Source: Thermoplasmata archaeon
GTDB lineage: Archaea > Thermoplasmatota > Thermoplasmata > Methanomassiliicoccales > Methanomethylophilaceae
Assembly (NCBI GenBank): GCA_015063245.1
Contig: SUSV01000007.1
Span: 1 to 64,000 of the forward strand
Length of the DNA stretch: 64,000 bases
Direction of reading: 5' to 3'
A model generated the notes under the pieces. It worked only from the letters and a program-made list of their open reading frames with translations, was not told the DNA's origin and searched no databases. Positions within the stretch are counted from its first letter, which is position 1; each line of letters starts with the position of its first letter. Made by a program: the position numbers and the translations under genes. Positions 2,573-33,492 of this stretch are shown here, one piece after another.

Positions 2573-3832
2573 TCAGAGCTTAGCGATCTCGTCAGGGCAC
2601 TCGGTCCTGATGAAGTCGTAATCATCGCTGAACATCTCCATCTCCTTGCCCTTGGTGAGCTTCATGATGATTCCAGTGATGAATCCGCCTACGAGTGAGA
2701 TTGCGAAGACGATGACAGCCATGGCGATGGTTGCAACAGCCTTTGCAGTCGCATCATCGAAGGGTGCCGCTGTACTCTCTCCGCAGACCAGGATGAGGAT
2801 GGTACAGAGGATTGCTCCGGTCCATCCAGCCATTCCGTGGAGGTTGTGAACTCCCATGACATCCAGAACTCCGAGTTTGCCGCACAGTTTGGGCTGGAGG
2901 TAGATGAAACAGAGAGCGGATACGATTCCTGCGATGATACCGACGATCAGGGCAACCCAAGGTCCGATGAGGACGAGAGGTGCTCCGATTGCGACGGGTC
3001 CTGCGAGCATCGCGTATGTGTATGTGAGAGGGTTGACCTTCTTCTGGCATACCATACATACGACGTATGCACTGACGACTGATCCGATTCCTGCCATGTA
3101 ACAGGTCATGATTCCCCACATGAACTGGTCTGCAGGGAGGAATGCACAAACGAATGTAGGCCAGAGGACCCAAAGGACCATACTGGCGAGCCAGACGAAT
3201 GATACGCTGTGTGTGGTGACGTTCATAGGCTCGTTGAATGCCTCTTTGACCCTGAGGGCGAGACATACACCAAGTCCGAAGTATGCTGCGCACATGTGGA
3301 CCATGATCGATCCACCGGTATCGAGTGCTGTTGTGTCCATGATCTCGAATGAAAGGACCATCCACTCAACTGCACAGTATACGACTGCGAACGCGATTCC
3401 TCCGAGGAAGTACTGCCACTGTTTGACAGTTCCAAGGAAGACTCCGATAGCGATGACATATGTGATAGCGCAGATAACTGCACCGAGCATAAGGTCCTGT
3501 CCCCACTCTGTTGCGAAGATCGCTTCATCGTAGTAAGGCCAGAACTCGTGGATTCCGCAGTATACAAGGTAGCTTGATGCTGCAGACAGGAGAACTGCAA
3601 GGCAGACTCCCCATTCGAATTTCTTGATGAAGATCATCAGGAATGCAACCATCATCAGCATGAACCAAACGCCGATGTTCTTGAAGAACTTCAAGGCTTC
3701 ATCCCCGACATCACCATGGGAAATGTAGTCTGTTGTAGCATCGAGGGGCTGTATGAATACAACCGACAGGATACCCATCAGGGCTACACTCAGCACCATG
3801 GCTAGTGCCAAGATTTTCTTGTTGTTAATCAT
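2573..3832 (-). CDS. Ammonium transporter family, Rh-type character
   Basis: Multi-TM; DTGGSIMVHMCAAYFGLGV and DVMGVHNLHGMAGWTGAI resemble Rh-family signatures more than classic AmtB (DTFGVHGVGG). Confidence 0.85.
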   Translation of the reverse strand: MINNKKILALAMVLSVALMGILSVVFIQPLDATTDYISHGDVGDEALKFFKNIGVWFMLMMVAFLMIFIKKFEWGVCLAVLLSAASSYLVYCGIHEFWPYYDEAIFATEWGQDLMLGAVICAITYVIAIGVFLGTVKQWQYFLGGIAFAVVYCAVEWMVLSFEIMDTTALDTGGSIMVHMCAAYFGLGVCLALRVKEAFNEPMNVTTHSVSFVWLASMVLWVLWPTFVCAFLPADQFMWGIMTCYMAGIGSVVSAYVVCMVCQKKVNPLTYTYAMLAGPVAIGAPLVLIGPWVALIVGIIAGIVSALCFIYLQPKLCGKLGVLDVMGVHNLHGMAGWTGAILCTILILVCGESTAAPFDDATAKAVATIAMAVIVFAISLVGGFITGIIMKLTKGKEMEMFSDDYDFIRTECPDEIAKL

Positions 3833-3840
3833 TTTTTACA

Positions 3841-4065
3841 CCTTTGATTTTTCAAAGGATCAAGAGTGTCCTGTTAGCCGACTTTCGTCATCGCTTACCG
3901 GTCTTTTCCCTAAACCGGAGTGGGTAGACGGGGATTCAGATTCTAGGCTCCGTCAGCTAGTCGGATCCGAACCTTTCATCCCGCCAGCGATGATACTGGC
4001 ACATCAGCCAGTATCAGCTAACGTTCATCACTCTTTGTTCCTTTCCTTTGTAGGTCCTACCCGGA
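3841..4065 (-). promoter_or_regulatory. Candidate structured 5' leader (riboswitch-like) of the Rh/Amt transporter
   Basis: Nested helices (4044-4050/3853-3859; 4029-4035/3862-3868; 4017-4022/3873-3878; hairpin 3992-4015; 3898-3902/3914-3918; GNRA hairpin 3880-3889). SD-sequestering hairpin 3841-3858. TATA-like ATAAATAT upstream at ~4086-4094. Confidence 0.6.
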
Positions 4066-4350
4066 AAAAGAATTGAATCCTACGATATTTATGCATTTCT
4101 AATTTTATCTAATTTAGTTTTAACTAAATTAATAATATTATTATTTTAATCCCTTGTTATTAATAATCAAAATCGATTAAAATCATCAATATAGCCAGCA
4201 TGTTCAGAACTTATGATGTAATAATATTGATAAATCAACTTTTTCTGTTGAATTAAGTTGCGATTTTTTGACAATTTTTTCTTGAAAATTAATAATCGTT
4301 GGATGTAACTTGTACACAAATGATCTGATAGAAAAAAGGTAAAGGGTTTG

Positions 4351-4393: not shown

Positions 4394-5833
4394 TCAGTAT
4401 CTGTAGTTCTTGGGGTCGTCGTATCCGCCGTACATGACACCGGTGTTGTAGGGGGTGATCTGGAATCCCCAGTCGGCCATGCGGGCGAGTGCCTTGTCGT
4501 AGACCTCGAGGTACTCCTTGGTGGGCCTGACGGTCTTGACGTCGTAGCACTCCTGGAAGGTCTTTCCGAGGTCAGCGGAGGTGTACTGAGGCTGGTACCA
4601 GTCAACCATCTTCTGAAGGATCTCGTTAACCTCAGGGATCTTCATTCCGGCTGTCTGAGCTGCTGCCTCTCCCATGACACGGGCCTCCATTCCGGTGGTC
4701 TTGTCCTGGACAACTCCCTTTGCGACTGCGGATCCGGAGAGGAGCTCTCTTCCGGAAGCGGTGTCACAGATTGCCTGTGCTGCTGTCTCGATCAGTCCCA
4801 TCTCTGTGCAGGGTCCTGCGACAGGGTAGTACTGGTTTGCCAGAAGGAGGTCGGTGTTGTTGTCGATTGCCGCACATGCGTGTCCTGCAACCTGGAGGGT
4901 CTCCTTAGCCATGGTTGTTCCCCACCTGATGTGGATAGGTCCGTCGAGGTGGAAGTTACCGGAGAAGAGTCCGAAGGATGCGAGTGTTGTTGCGACATCA
5001 CAGATTGCTGTCTCCTCGAGGTTACCGCAGTATCCACCGAAGATAGGCATCTGCTCGATCATGATGACATCTCCAGAGATGGTCCATCCTGCGAGCATGT
5101 TGAGTCCGGTCATATCCATCTTCAGCTCGTTGAGCTGTGAGCACTCGTGGGCGTCTGTGATCCTGTGTCCTGCGTTGGGGCAGTCTGCGACGAGACGTGC
5201 TGCCTCGGACAGAGGTGTCTCAGGTCCCTATACTCCGAGTCCGGGCCTCTGGGCTCTGATCCTTGCTTCCTTGGTTGCCCTGAGCTCCTGCATTGTAGCA
5301 CGAATCTCGTAGGGTGTCTTTGACTTTGCGGGCTTGCCCTCGACAGTGGTCATGACTCCGTTAACGAGGTCGTCAACGATTCCCTCCTGTGCGTAGGACT
5401 GCATGATCTGGACGAAGACGTCCTCAGAGATAGGGGATCCGGTAGGTCCTCCCTGGATGACGGGCTTGATAGGTGCGTTTCCGTGACGGGGGTAGAACCT
5501 TGCGACATCTCTTCCCTCTCCGAGAATGATCTTTTTGGGTGCCCTCTTGATTCCCTCCCAGATTTCCTCTTCCGTGAACTTCATGACACGGCCGAGGTCC
5601 TGGCAGTAGAATCCGCAGGTGCACAGCATGTCGAGACCAGCCTGGAACAGGTTGTTCTTTGTCTCGTTGTCCTCGGGGACGAATGCTCCGCCGAAGTCGA
5701 GCTTGTACTTCTCCTTCATTGCGGTTGCGGTCTCAGGGATGATTTTGTAATCCCAGTCTGCCTCAGGTGTCTTCTTTCCCTTGATGAATCTCTCGTAGAC
5801 ATCAGTGATTGTCAAGAATCTTGTTGCTGCCAT
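4394..5833 (-). CDS. mtmB: Monomethylamine methyltransferase MtmB, pyrrolysine protein (in-frame TAG at 5228-5230, residue 202)
   Basis: ORFs 5228-5833 and 4394-5119 are in one frame separated only by TAG: ...RAQRPGLGV-O-GPETPLSEAARLVADCPNAGHRITDAHECSQLNELKMDMTGLNM...; matches the MtmB family including Pyl202. Confidence 0.95.
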
Positions 5834-5860: not shown

Positions 5861-6499
5861 TCAGTTTCCGGTGAGTTTGTCAACGAGTCCGATGATCTCG
5901 TTTGCGGTCTCAGAGTATCCGTCTGCTCCGATCTCGTCGCACCACTCTTTGGAACAGGGTGCTCCTCCGAAGATTGCCTTGTAAGGGGCCTCCATCTCTT
6001 TGATGGTCTCGACGATCTCTCTCTGGGACTCGAGTGTGGTTGTCATGAGTGCAGATCCACCGCAAACCTGTGCGTTGTTCTCCTCTGCAGCGTCCATGAA
6101 GTCCATAGCGGATGCATCGGGTCCGAGGTCGATAACGTTGTATCCAGCTCCCCTGAGCATTGCACAGCAGACGTTCTTTCCGATCTCGTGGATGTCTCCC
6201 TCGACGGTTCCCATGACGACGGTTCCCTTGAGGTTTCCGGATCCGGCTTCCATGAGGGGCTTGAGGATGTTGAGTGCTGCTTCCATTGTCTTGGATGCTG
6301 CAACGACCTGGGGCAGGTAGATCTCAGCCTTGTCGAACCTGACTCCAATCGTCTCCATTCCCTTTCCGAGTCCGCTTCCGATGATCTCTCCGATATCCAT
6401 CTTAGCATCGATTGCCTTCTGGGTTGCTTCCTGGGCAAGTTTGATGTTCCATGTCTCGACCGCTGTCTTAAGATCAGCGAGAATCTGTTCGTTTGCCAT
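5861..6499 (-). CDS. mtmC: Monomethylamine corrinoid protein MtmC
   Basis: GTVEGDIHEIGKNVCCAMLRGAGYNVIDLG cobalamin-binding (DxHxxG) motif; directly upstream of mtmB. Confidence 0.93.
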   Translation of the reverse strand: MANEQILADLKTAVETWNIKLAQEATQKAIDAKMDIGEIIGSGLGKGMETIGVRFDKAEIYLPQVVAASKTMEAALNILKPLMEAGSGNLKGTVVMGTVEGDIHEIGKNVCCAMLRGAGYNVIDLGPDASAMDFMDAAEENNAQVCGGSALMTTTLESQREIVETIKEMEAPYKAIFGGAPCSKEWCDEIGADGYSETANEIIGLVDKLTGN

Positions 6500-30869: not shown

Positions 30870-32357
30870 ATGAAGGTCGGATTTGACAACGATTTGTATC
30901 TGAAGACACAGTCTGAGCACATCAGAGAGCGCATCGACAAGTTCGGCGGGAAGCTCTATCTGGAATTCGGCGGGAAGCTCTTCGACGATTACCACGCATC
31001 CCGCGTTCTTCCCGGATTCATGCCTGACAGCAAGATCAGGATGCTGATGCAGTTCGGACAGGATGCCGAGGCGATCATAGTGATCAATGCCGAGGACATC
31101 GTCAAGAAGAAGATACGCAAGGATTTCAGCGTCGGATACGACCTGGAGGTGCTGAGGCTCGTGGATATGTTCCTCGACAGGGGGATCGGAGTCACAGGTC
31201 TGGTCATCACCCATTTCAACGGGCAGTCCGAGGCGGAGGCCTTCCAGAAGAAGGCGGAGTCCAACGGGCTTAAGGTCTACAGGCACTACCTCATAGACGG
31301 ATACCCCTCCAATGTCAATCTGATCGCATCGGATGAAGGATACGGAAAGAACGACTATGTCCCCACGACAAAACCCCTTGTGATCGTCACCGCTCCCGGA
31401 CCGGGAAGCGGTAAGATGGCAGTATGTCTGTCGCAGCTGTACCATGAGAAGAAGAGGGGCATCCAGGCGGGATACGCCAAGTTCGAGACCTTCCCCATTT
31501 GGAACCTTCCCCTGAAGCACCCCGTGAACATCGCCTACGAGGCCGCCACGGTGGACCTTGGGGATGTCAATATGATCGATCCATACCATCTCGATGCGTA
31601 TGGCGAGACCACTGTCAACTATAACAGGGATATCGAGATCTTCCCTGTGGTGAATGCGATCCTCGAAGGGGTCCTCGGAAGCTCCCCGTACAAGTCCCCC
31701 ACGGACATGGGGGTGAACATGGCGGGCAACTGCATAATCGATGATGAGATCGTCCGTAAAGCGGCGAACTACGAGATCATCAGGCGCTACTATTCGACGC
31801 TCAGGGACCGCAGAGAGGGAAGAGCGACGCCGGAGACCCTGCTCAAATCCGAGATCTACATGAAGAACGCGGACATCACGCCGGAGTACCGCAAGACCGT
31901 CGCAACAGTGAGGAAGGTCATGACAGAGACCGAGAGGCCGGTCGTCGCAGCGGAGCTCGAGGACGGAAGGATAGTCACCGGAAAGGCGACGCCACTGACA
32001 ACCGCTTCCTCATCGATGATGCTGAACATGCTGAAGGAGATGGCAGGCATAGACGACAGCGTCATGCTGATCTCCAAGGAGGTCATCGAATCCGTTCAGA
32101 GGCTCAAGGTCGACAACCTCGGATACAAGAATCCCCGGCTGCACCTGGACGAGCTCCTGATAGCGCTGTCCATCATAGCCAGGACGGATAAGAATGCCGA
32201 GAAGGCGTTCAGGATGCTCCCCAAGCTCAGGGGGTGCGATGTGCATTCATCGGTCATCCTTTCGGTGGTGGACGAGAATGTCTACAAGAAGCTCGGAATG
32301 AACACCTCGAGCGAGCCCGAGCATCAGACGAAGTGTCTGTTCCACGAGAGCTTCTGA
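30870..32357 (+). CDS. DUF1846 family protein
   Basis: FDNDLYLKTQSEHIRERIDKFGGKLYLEFGGKLFDDYHASRVLPGF..., KPLVIVTAPGPGSGKMAVCLSQLYHE. Confidence 0.88.
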   Translation: MKVGFDNDLYLKTQSEHIRERIDKFGGKLYLEFGGKLFDDYHASRVLPGFMPDSKIRMLMQFGQDAEAIIVINAEDIVKKKIRKDFSVGYDLEVLRLVDMFLDRGIGVTGLVITHFNGQSEAEAFQKKAESNGLKVYRHYLIDGYPSNVNLIASDEGYGKNDYVPTTKPLVIVTAPGPGSGKMAVCLSQLYHEKKRGIQAGYAKFETFPIWNLPLKHPVNIAYEAATVDLGDVNMIDPYHLDAYGETTVNYNRDIEIFPVVNAILEGVLGSSPYKSPTDMGVNMAGNCIIDDEIVRKAANYEIIRRYYSTLRDRREGRATPETLLKSEIYMKNADITPEYRKTVATVRKVMTETERPVVAAELEDGRIVTGKATPLTTASSSMMLNMLKEMAGIDDSVMLISKEVIESVQRLKVDNLGYKNPRLHLDELLIALSIIARTDKNAEKAFRMLPKLRGCDVHSSVILSVVDENVYKKLGMNTSSEPEHQTKCLFHESF

Positions 32358-32383
32358 TTCCGGGGTAAAAAGCCGATAATCAA

Positions 32384-32421
32384 TTTGCTGCATCATTTAC
32401 TAGTGAATTTGATGCAGCAAA
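32384..32421. repeat. 12-bp perfect inverted repeat (operator or terminator)
   Basis: TTTGCTGCATCA ... TGATGCAGCAAA with an ACTAGT centre. Confidence 0.7.
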
Positions 32422-32460
32422 AACATAATTATTATATATTGGCTTACAGTAGTTGCAATA

Positions 32461-33492
32461 GTGCACGTTTTCAACTATAATTTCCTCCGCAATGCTTCGG
32501 TGGATGCGGACATACTCAACAGAGCGACGAATCTCGAGAGGATAAGAGGCGGTATGGTACCGCTCAGCGACAGGCTGTCGAGGACATTGGAGAGACGTGC
32601 GGTCCTCATGTCCGTCATCGATTCCAACGATATCGAAGGGATCCGTACCAGCGAAGAAAGGATGATCAAGATCATCAACAACGTGACGGCCCCACGCGGA
32701 CAAGACGAGGAAGAGATAGCAGGATATCGCGATGCGCTGAGGTACATCCATTCGAAACACGGCAGCATAGTGCTGGACAAGAAGGAGATCCTGAACATCT
32801 ATGGTATGCTGATGATGCACACCAATGCCGAACCCGCATTCAAAACAAGGGACAATGTCATCATCGAAAGGGACATCGAAGGGAATGTGGTGATGGTCCA
32901 TCCGACTGTCCCTTCGGAGCAGACGGAGAGATGCATCGATCAGATGCTGTATTCGTTCTGGGAAGCAAGGAACGACGCCGATATCAACAAGCTGCTTCTG
33001 ATCCCATGCTTCATCATGGACTTCCTTAGGATCCATCCTTTCATAGACGGCAATGGACGCATGTCGAGATTGCTTACGATCCTGCTGCTCTACCAGGAAG
33101 GCTACGAGGTATGCAGATACACATCCATCGAATCCAAGATAAACGCCAGCAAGAGCGATTATTACACGGCCCTGGAGGAATCGGAAATCGGCTGGTTCGA
33201 GAACGAATGCGACTACGGGCCCTTCATCAAGCATTTCCTGGACTGCCTGTTCCTATGCTACAGGGAACTGAATCTTACGGCAGGGACCACGATGGGTAGG
33301 AACGGCACAGGGGATTCGATAGAGGTCTTCATGAGGTCCTGCTACATCCACGTCTCCAAGAAGGACATCTGCATGATGTTCCCTGAAGTTTCGGAGACGA
33401 CTGTGGAAAGGGTGCTGAAGAAGATGTGCGATTCCGGGGAAATCATCAAGGTCGGTGAATCCCGCGCCACGAGATACATTGCAAAAAGATGA
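32461..33492 (+). CDS. Fic family protein with C-terminal winged-helix-like region
   Basis: HPFIDGNGRMSRLLTILLLYQ Fic motif; VIDSNDIEGIRTSEE; GTG start, apparently near-leaderless (TATTATATATT ~30 nt upstream). Confidence 0.9.
   Translation: MHVFNYNFLRNASVDADILNRATNLERIRGGMVPLSDRLSRTLERRAVLMSVIDSNDIEGIRTSEERMIKIINNVTAPRGQDEEEIAGYRDALRYIHSKHGSIVLDKKEILNIYGMLMMHTNAEPAFKTRDNVIIERDIEGNVVMVHPTVPSEQTERCIDQMLYSFWEARNDADINKLLLIPCFIMDFLRIHPFIDGNGRMSRLLTILLLYQEGYEVCRYTSIESKINASKSDYYTALEESEIGWFENECDYGPFIKHFLDCLFLCYRELNLTAGTTMGRNGTGDSIEVFMRSCYIHVSKKDICMMFPEVSETTVERVLKKMCDSGEIIKVGESRATRYIAKR

Follow-up and report, generated by a model that had tools for sequence, protein, structure and literature searches.

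A strongly folded, orphan leader with predicted mutually exclusive pairings at the ribosome-binding site of an Rh-type transporter gene in a methane-making archaeon

We analysed a structured leader of ~230 nt on the minus strand (~4063-3833), 5' of an Rh-type transporter gene, in a 64-kb stretch of the genome of a methane-making archaeon (this whole stretch is called the window below). We give about even chances to this leader being an orphan, lineage-specific cis-regulatory 5' UTR that modulates translation of the transporter gene. Computation showed a predicted fold far above background and two predicted pairings which both exist, exclude each other and have near-equal energy. The reading is supported by the z-scores of the core and of the leader, the p-value of the hairpin at the Shine-Dalgarno (SD) site, the near-equal states, the promoter layout and the gene context. 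It is weakened by the occurrence of the domain in a single genome, a p-value of ~0.05 for the outer helix, similar SD hairpins at several ORFs of the window, nearest orthologs devoid of a structured leader, and the thin support drawn from parallel modules in related genomes.

The transporter product matched Pfam family PF00909 (E 8.8e-35), and its best solved relatives were the bacterial Rh50 and Rh-like proteins 3b9y, 3b9w and 3bhs (E about 1e-43 for Rh50); an Rh/Amt transporter had been proposed downstream of the leader from the sequence alone, and it is of the Rh type according to these closest structures. Its natural function would be the uptake of methylamine or ammonia. Genes mtmC and mtmB are located, in this order, immediately upstream of the leader and transporter gene (Table 1). 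When its TAG was decoded, mtmB gave a single PF05369 match covering 449 of 450 positions, as expected of a pyrrolysine protein. Across the order, inspection by eye placed most homologs of the transporter gene either a short spacer after mtmB or after an mtmC-like gene.

Table 1. Features of the leader and of its neighbourhood (positions in the window)
Feature	Position	Strand	Basis
Rh-type ammonium/methylamine transporter gene, 419 aa	2573..3832	-	PF00909; structure relatives
SD-like AAAGGUG, 6 nt before AUG	3839..3845	-	sequence
SD-sequestering hairpin CCUUUGA-AAAA-UCAAAGG	3841..3858 (3858-3852/3847-3841)	-	shuffles, ensemble folding
UCCUUUG shared strand (outer helix 3' side or hairpin anti-SD strand)	3853..3859	-	folding
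Structured core, 174 nt	3862..4035	-	folding; singleton by covariance model R1
P1 AAGAGTG/CACTCTT, closes core	4035-4029/3868-3862	-	
Four-way junction (P2-P5)	3873..4022	-	folding, co-optimal with MFE or nearly so
P2 GTTAGC/GCTAAC	4022-4017/3878-3873	-	
P3 hairpin TGATACTGGC/GCCAGTATCA, 10 bp	4016-4007/4000-3991	-	
P4 UCGCU/AGCGA	3990-3986/3895-3891	-	
P5 UGAC-GAAA-GUCG (holds GAC-GAAA-GTC hairpin)	3890-3879	-	
Inner long arm GGCGGGAU...AUCCCCGUC	3927..3985	-	folding
CCGGUU...GACCGG arm (CCGGT/ACCGG, 3918-3913/3903-3898)	3898..3918	-	folding
Two overlapping AAAGGA registers, outer helix 5' strand	4039..4050	-	folding
Outer helix, earlier-named register (CAAAGGA/TCCTTTG)	4050-4044/3859-3853	-	
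Short 5' hairpin GUAGGACCUAC	4050..4060	-	folding
TTCTTTTTC tract ending at putative transcription start (~4063)	4064..4072	-	kept in window, G088, G083
TATA-like ATAAATAT, putative promoter	4085..4092	-	layout similar in orthologs G088, G083
mtmB, monomethylamine methyltransferase, one in-frame TAG (pyrrolysine)	4394..5833	-	PF05369
mtmC-like corrinoid protein	5861..6499	-	Pfam

Inspection of the sequence recovered on the minus strand each of the helices named in the sequence-only reading; the hairpin described as 9 bp long (P3) was present, with a length of 10 bp. The minimum free energy (MFE) of the 174-nt core (4035-3862) was -70.5 kcal/mol. Versions of the four-way junction P2/P3/P4/P5 were co-optimal with it (-70.5 kcal/mol), and the exact junction, i.e. 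with zero unpaired junction bases, reached -68.7 kcal/mol. For the 251-nt stretch 4080-3830, the MFE was -88.4 kcal/mol vs -64.5 +/- 4.6 for dinucleotide shuffles (z -5.18; 0 of 200 shuffles equally low). The z-score of the core (~ -5.9 with 25 shuffles) was below those of all 1,420 sliding windows that covered the two strands of the 64-kb stretch, the lowest of which was -5.36; z-scores from 25 shuffles are rough, since that of the runner-up (32311-32484), -5.36, weakened to -3.72 when 200 shuffles were used. At a length of 174 nt, no other part of the window thus has so unusual a fold. Elsewhere in the window, the second lowest z-score, with the values just given, belongs to a 12-bp inverted repeat (TTTGCTGCATCA/TGATGCAGCAAA, 32384-32421, plus strand), perhaps an operator or a terminator, situated in the gap that precedes an ORF (32461-33492, plus strand) that reads by eye as Fic-like (HPFIDGNGR).

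Just before the start codon, the SD-like AAAGGUG, which matches as complement the CACCU at the 3' end of archaeal 16S rRNA, was said to be buried by a hairpin; this hairpin is present, covers AAAGG of AAAGGUG and stood out against shuffles of the region (p=0.0065). By itself such a hairpin is not rare, because it ranked 6th in stability among the 44 ORFs of the window that have an SD-like site. Its anti-SD strand is UCCUUUG (3859-3853) shifted by one base, and the claim that this same segment also closes the outer helix, making the two pairings exclude each other, withstood folding. The register initially named for the outer helix (4050-4044) did not: in ensembles folded from position 4062 on, its probability was at most 0.04 and the second AAAGGA (4044-4039), paired with 3859-3854, was preferred (~0.65-0.75, vs 0.20-0.34 for the SD hairpin), the named register being about 1-2.5 kcal/mol worse than the preferred one. 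Forcing either state from the inferred start (~4063) on gave -81.2 kcal/mol for the outer helix and -80.6 kcal/mol for the SD hairpin, and -88.4 vs -88.2 kcal/mol when more coding sequence was included, i.e. predicted energies within about 1 kcal/mol (0.2-0.6). The 251-nt MFE, which starts at 4080, is misleading in this respect because pyrimidines located before the inferred start site enter a helix. A search for an intrinsic terminator or attenuator (GC-rich hairpin and U-run) returned 0 terminator-like sites, the hairpin being followed by UGUAAAAAA.

These pairings suggest how the leader could act. With the core formed and AAAGGA paired with UCCUUU in the outer helix, UCCUUU would be held and the SD AAAGGUG would be free; on opening of the outer helix, UCCUUU would fold onto the SD and translation would fall. 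The balance between the two pairings would be regulated by a signal presumably tied to nitrogen or methylamine status, be it a small molecule, a protein, or temperature or ion effects. Exclusive pairings at an SD or a terminator, such as riboswitches have, are here predicted at the SD; the complementarity of the outer helix was weak, with p=0.05 against both shuffles of its 5' strand and random 27-mers of the window. The pairings thus appear real as drawn and, as evidence of a switch, are suggestive, not conclusive. The translational switch advanced in the sequence-only reading may therefore be viewed as a reasonable inference from the burial of the SD and the near-equal exclusive states, to which the lack of any leader homolog in the genomes searched and the marginal outer helix are opposed.

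The strong fold and the weak outer-helix statistics would also suit a leader that does not switch at all and exerts a constitutive effect (on mRNA stability, or through a low fixed translation rate) or is processed into a small RNA. We regard this as somewhat unlikely, as near-equal energies and the sharing of a strand at the SD are what a switch requires, although they are no proof of one.

The regulatory leader that we favour would be transcribed from a promoter shared with orthologs. The closest orthologs of the transporter, G088 and G083 (73 and 75% protein identity, respectively), form one clade with that of the window with full support. In all three genomes, a TTCTTTTT(T)C tract ends ~25 nt downstream of a TATA-like box; in the window, the distance from the centre of the TATA-like site, noticed earlier upstream of the domain, to the end of the T-tract is 25 nt, and about the same spacing was observed in G088 and G083. 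As the promoter layout is the same in these two nearest orthologs, the domain probably lies within the transcript, downstream of the shared promoter. No structured leader precedes the transporter gene in G088 and G083, where the tract is separated from the ATG by only 26 and 24 nt, respectively, vs 231 nt in the window, which points to a lineage-specific domain. The extra ~205 nt would result from an insertion in the window lineage or, less simply, from losses in both G088 and G083.

A rival explanation is an inserted element: a structured sequence of ~205 nt, such as a virus-derived RNA or a non-autonomous mobile one, would have landed between promoter and gene, the SD hairpin being a by-product. 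The collinearity of promoter and gene in the two orthologs and the GC content of the core (0.52), unlike that of its AT-rich flank, are consistent with such an event, which we nevertheless deem unlikely. The multiple copies or flanking repeats of a mobile element were not observed: the own genome holds no second copy of the domain, no direct repeats were found flanking it, and neither phage and plasmid searches with the leader nor two exact scans of viral contigs gave any match.

Relatives of the lineage-specific leader were also sought among known RNA families. At the gathering cut-off of Rfam 15, only tRNAs were detected in the 64-kb window and the leader matched no family, whether riboswitch or non-switch RNA; at E up to 10, the best local match (E 0.6) was a nematode snoRNA far below the cut-off, in agreement with the earlier statement that no TPP, FMN, cobalamin, lysine, glycine or fluoride signature could be recognised. 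Readings as K-turn, hammerhead, HDV, attC or group I/II intron were discarded by eye and through Rfam, conserved residues being missing, and an opposite-strand coding sequence (ORF 3753-4076, plus strand) was rejected for want of a Pfam match.

A covariance model, R1, was built from the one sequence and its structure (self-score 217 bits). Among the genomes scanned (order, 148; class, 400; phylum, 393; genus, 31), which form overlapping sets with the genus set searched apart, it found no credible second copy, and on the transporter loci it retrieved the window's own locus only. Homologous leaders, on which the sequence-only reading had counted for covariation analysis, were thus missing from the order, class, phylum and genus genomes. 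One R1 match in G074 (E 0.015, 16.7 bits, 107 nt of the 174-nt model) was taken as chance because it lies within what looks like coding sequence. BLASTN of the leader against the 148 genomes gave E 0.0015 for the best other match; a recurrent match (leader positions 104-125) was likewise attributed to chance, as it lies in the reading frame AYRDAMERFGSDKPDMRYG, presumably that of an aspartyl-tRNA synthetase. The leader therefore appears as an orphan among the genomes searched. In the literature searched, riboswitches of Methanomassiliicoccales received just two passing mentions.

These results bear on a narrower version of the main reading, namely a new class of metabolite riboswitch. The four-way-junction core would bind a ligand, possibly an ammonium- or methylamine-related compound, glutamine, a corrinoid or another molecule, and stabilise the outer helix, opening the SD, or act in the reverse direction. 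The multi-branched core with its tetraloop and junction, the two exclusive pairings as expression platform, the transporter target and the failure of any Rfam class to fit, even at E up to 10, are in its favour. The aptamers of riboswitches are as a rule conserved between species; no conserved aptamer emerged here, and the domain was found in a single genome across the order, class and phylum samples, which leads us to judge this special case distinctly unlikely.

Among known systems, translational riboswitches that sequester the SD use a shared strand that pairs either with a helix on the aptamer side or with the SD. The leader has this same shared-strand design and differs from them in lacking a known aptamer and in occurring in one genome. 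The crcB/fluoride RNA and other archaeal riboswitches are likewise structured 5' UTRs, some of which control transporters, and do not match the leader in sequence or structure. Like the leader, the glnA and Downstream-peptide RNA motifs (cyanobacterial glutamine riboswitches) precede genes of nitrogen metabolism, and ammonium transporters are among the genes of glnA RNAs (PMC2864571). These motifs are smaller RNAs from cyanobacteria and marine sequences, and the window has no Rfam match to either.

Long, GC-rich leaders also precede Rh/Amt genes in five other genomes of the same genus, at loci L049 (G090), L051 (G097), L061 (G099), L059 (G103) and L076 (G096), where they share a module, B (GGGAWAUC-hairpin-GCCGGAUGUWUCCC), lying 64-146 nt before the ATG in the four measured. 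Among the 148 genomes, the pattern was confined to these five, with one occurrence in each, and a model search returned five matches (E 4e-14 to 3e-7), the next best being at 0.0056; module B is found only before the transporter gene. Three of the loci were scanned against Rfam, with no match. Module B is absent from the leader of the window, and no sequence or structure shared with its core was detected, whereas the gene family, the long structured leader and a helix strand complementary to the SD are common to both: strand UAUCCCC of module B complements GGGGAU, the SD of that same leader, and the idea of exclusive pairings thereby recurs, as seen directly, with different letters. Covariation was thin: the five sequences yielded a single compensatory pair, and 44 of 500 shuffles did equally well, in an alignment for which the variable loops of two of the sequences had been shortened by hand. 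The fold z-scores of these leaders ranged from -0.7 to -4.1 depending on the length folded. In the three genomes read (G090, G097 and G099), mtmC and mtmB lie downstream of the transporter gene on the same strand. Module B is a candidate for a new regulatory RNA of the methylamine gene cluster. The idea that these leaders derive from a decayed mtmC was considered in the same three genomes, and only short matches were found, at the module and near the ATG.

Two further observations were made on transporter loci. The leaders of G097 (L051) and G096 (L076) share a second module, A (GGUUCGAC-[stem-loop]-CGUGUCACCUCC), which holds UCACCUCC, resembling the 3' end of archaeal 16S rRNA and possibly mimicking an anti-SD. 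Beyond these two genomes, the pattern (GGUUCGAC...CGUGUCACC) had one further match in the order, in G123, and its 54 exact matches in viral contigs were put down to chance. At four other loci, i.e. L041 (G098), L045 (G075), L055 (G087) and L060 (G048), mtmC lies just upstream of the transporter gene, and within its coding sequence a pairing can form (GGGGAUA...UAUCCCC or GGAGAU...GUCUCC) whose letters resemble the module-B hairpin; this is possibly a link to the noncoding leaders, or chance.

In its boldest form, which we consider quite improbable, the interpretation would make the core a new archaeal riboswitch class tuned to methylamine/ammonium status, gating translation of the channel beside pyrrolysine-dependent methyltransferase genes; the genus would then use two or more unrelated leader designs on this gene, the core being one of them. 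To our knowledge, few archaeal regulatory RNAs have been described. The five-genome module B constitutes a comparative set that is testable at once. Unrelated folded leaders on one transporter within a genus would point to RNA control having been invented more than once. Should the leader of the window gate an ammonia/methylamine channel whose gene neighbours those for monomethylamine methyltransferase, it would open a direct route to understanding how these methanogens match their uptake of methylamine to its use.
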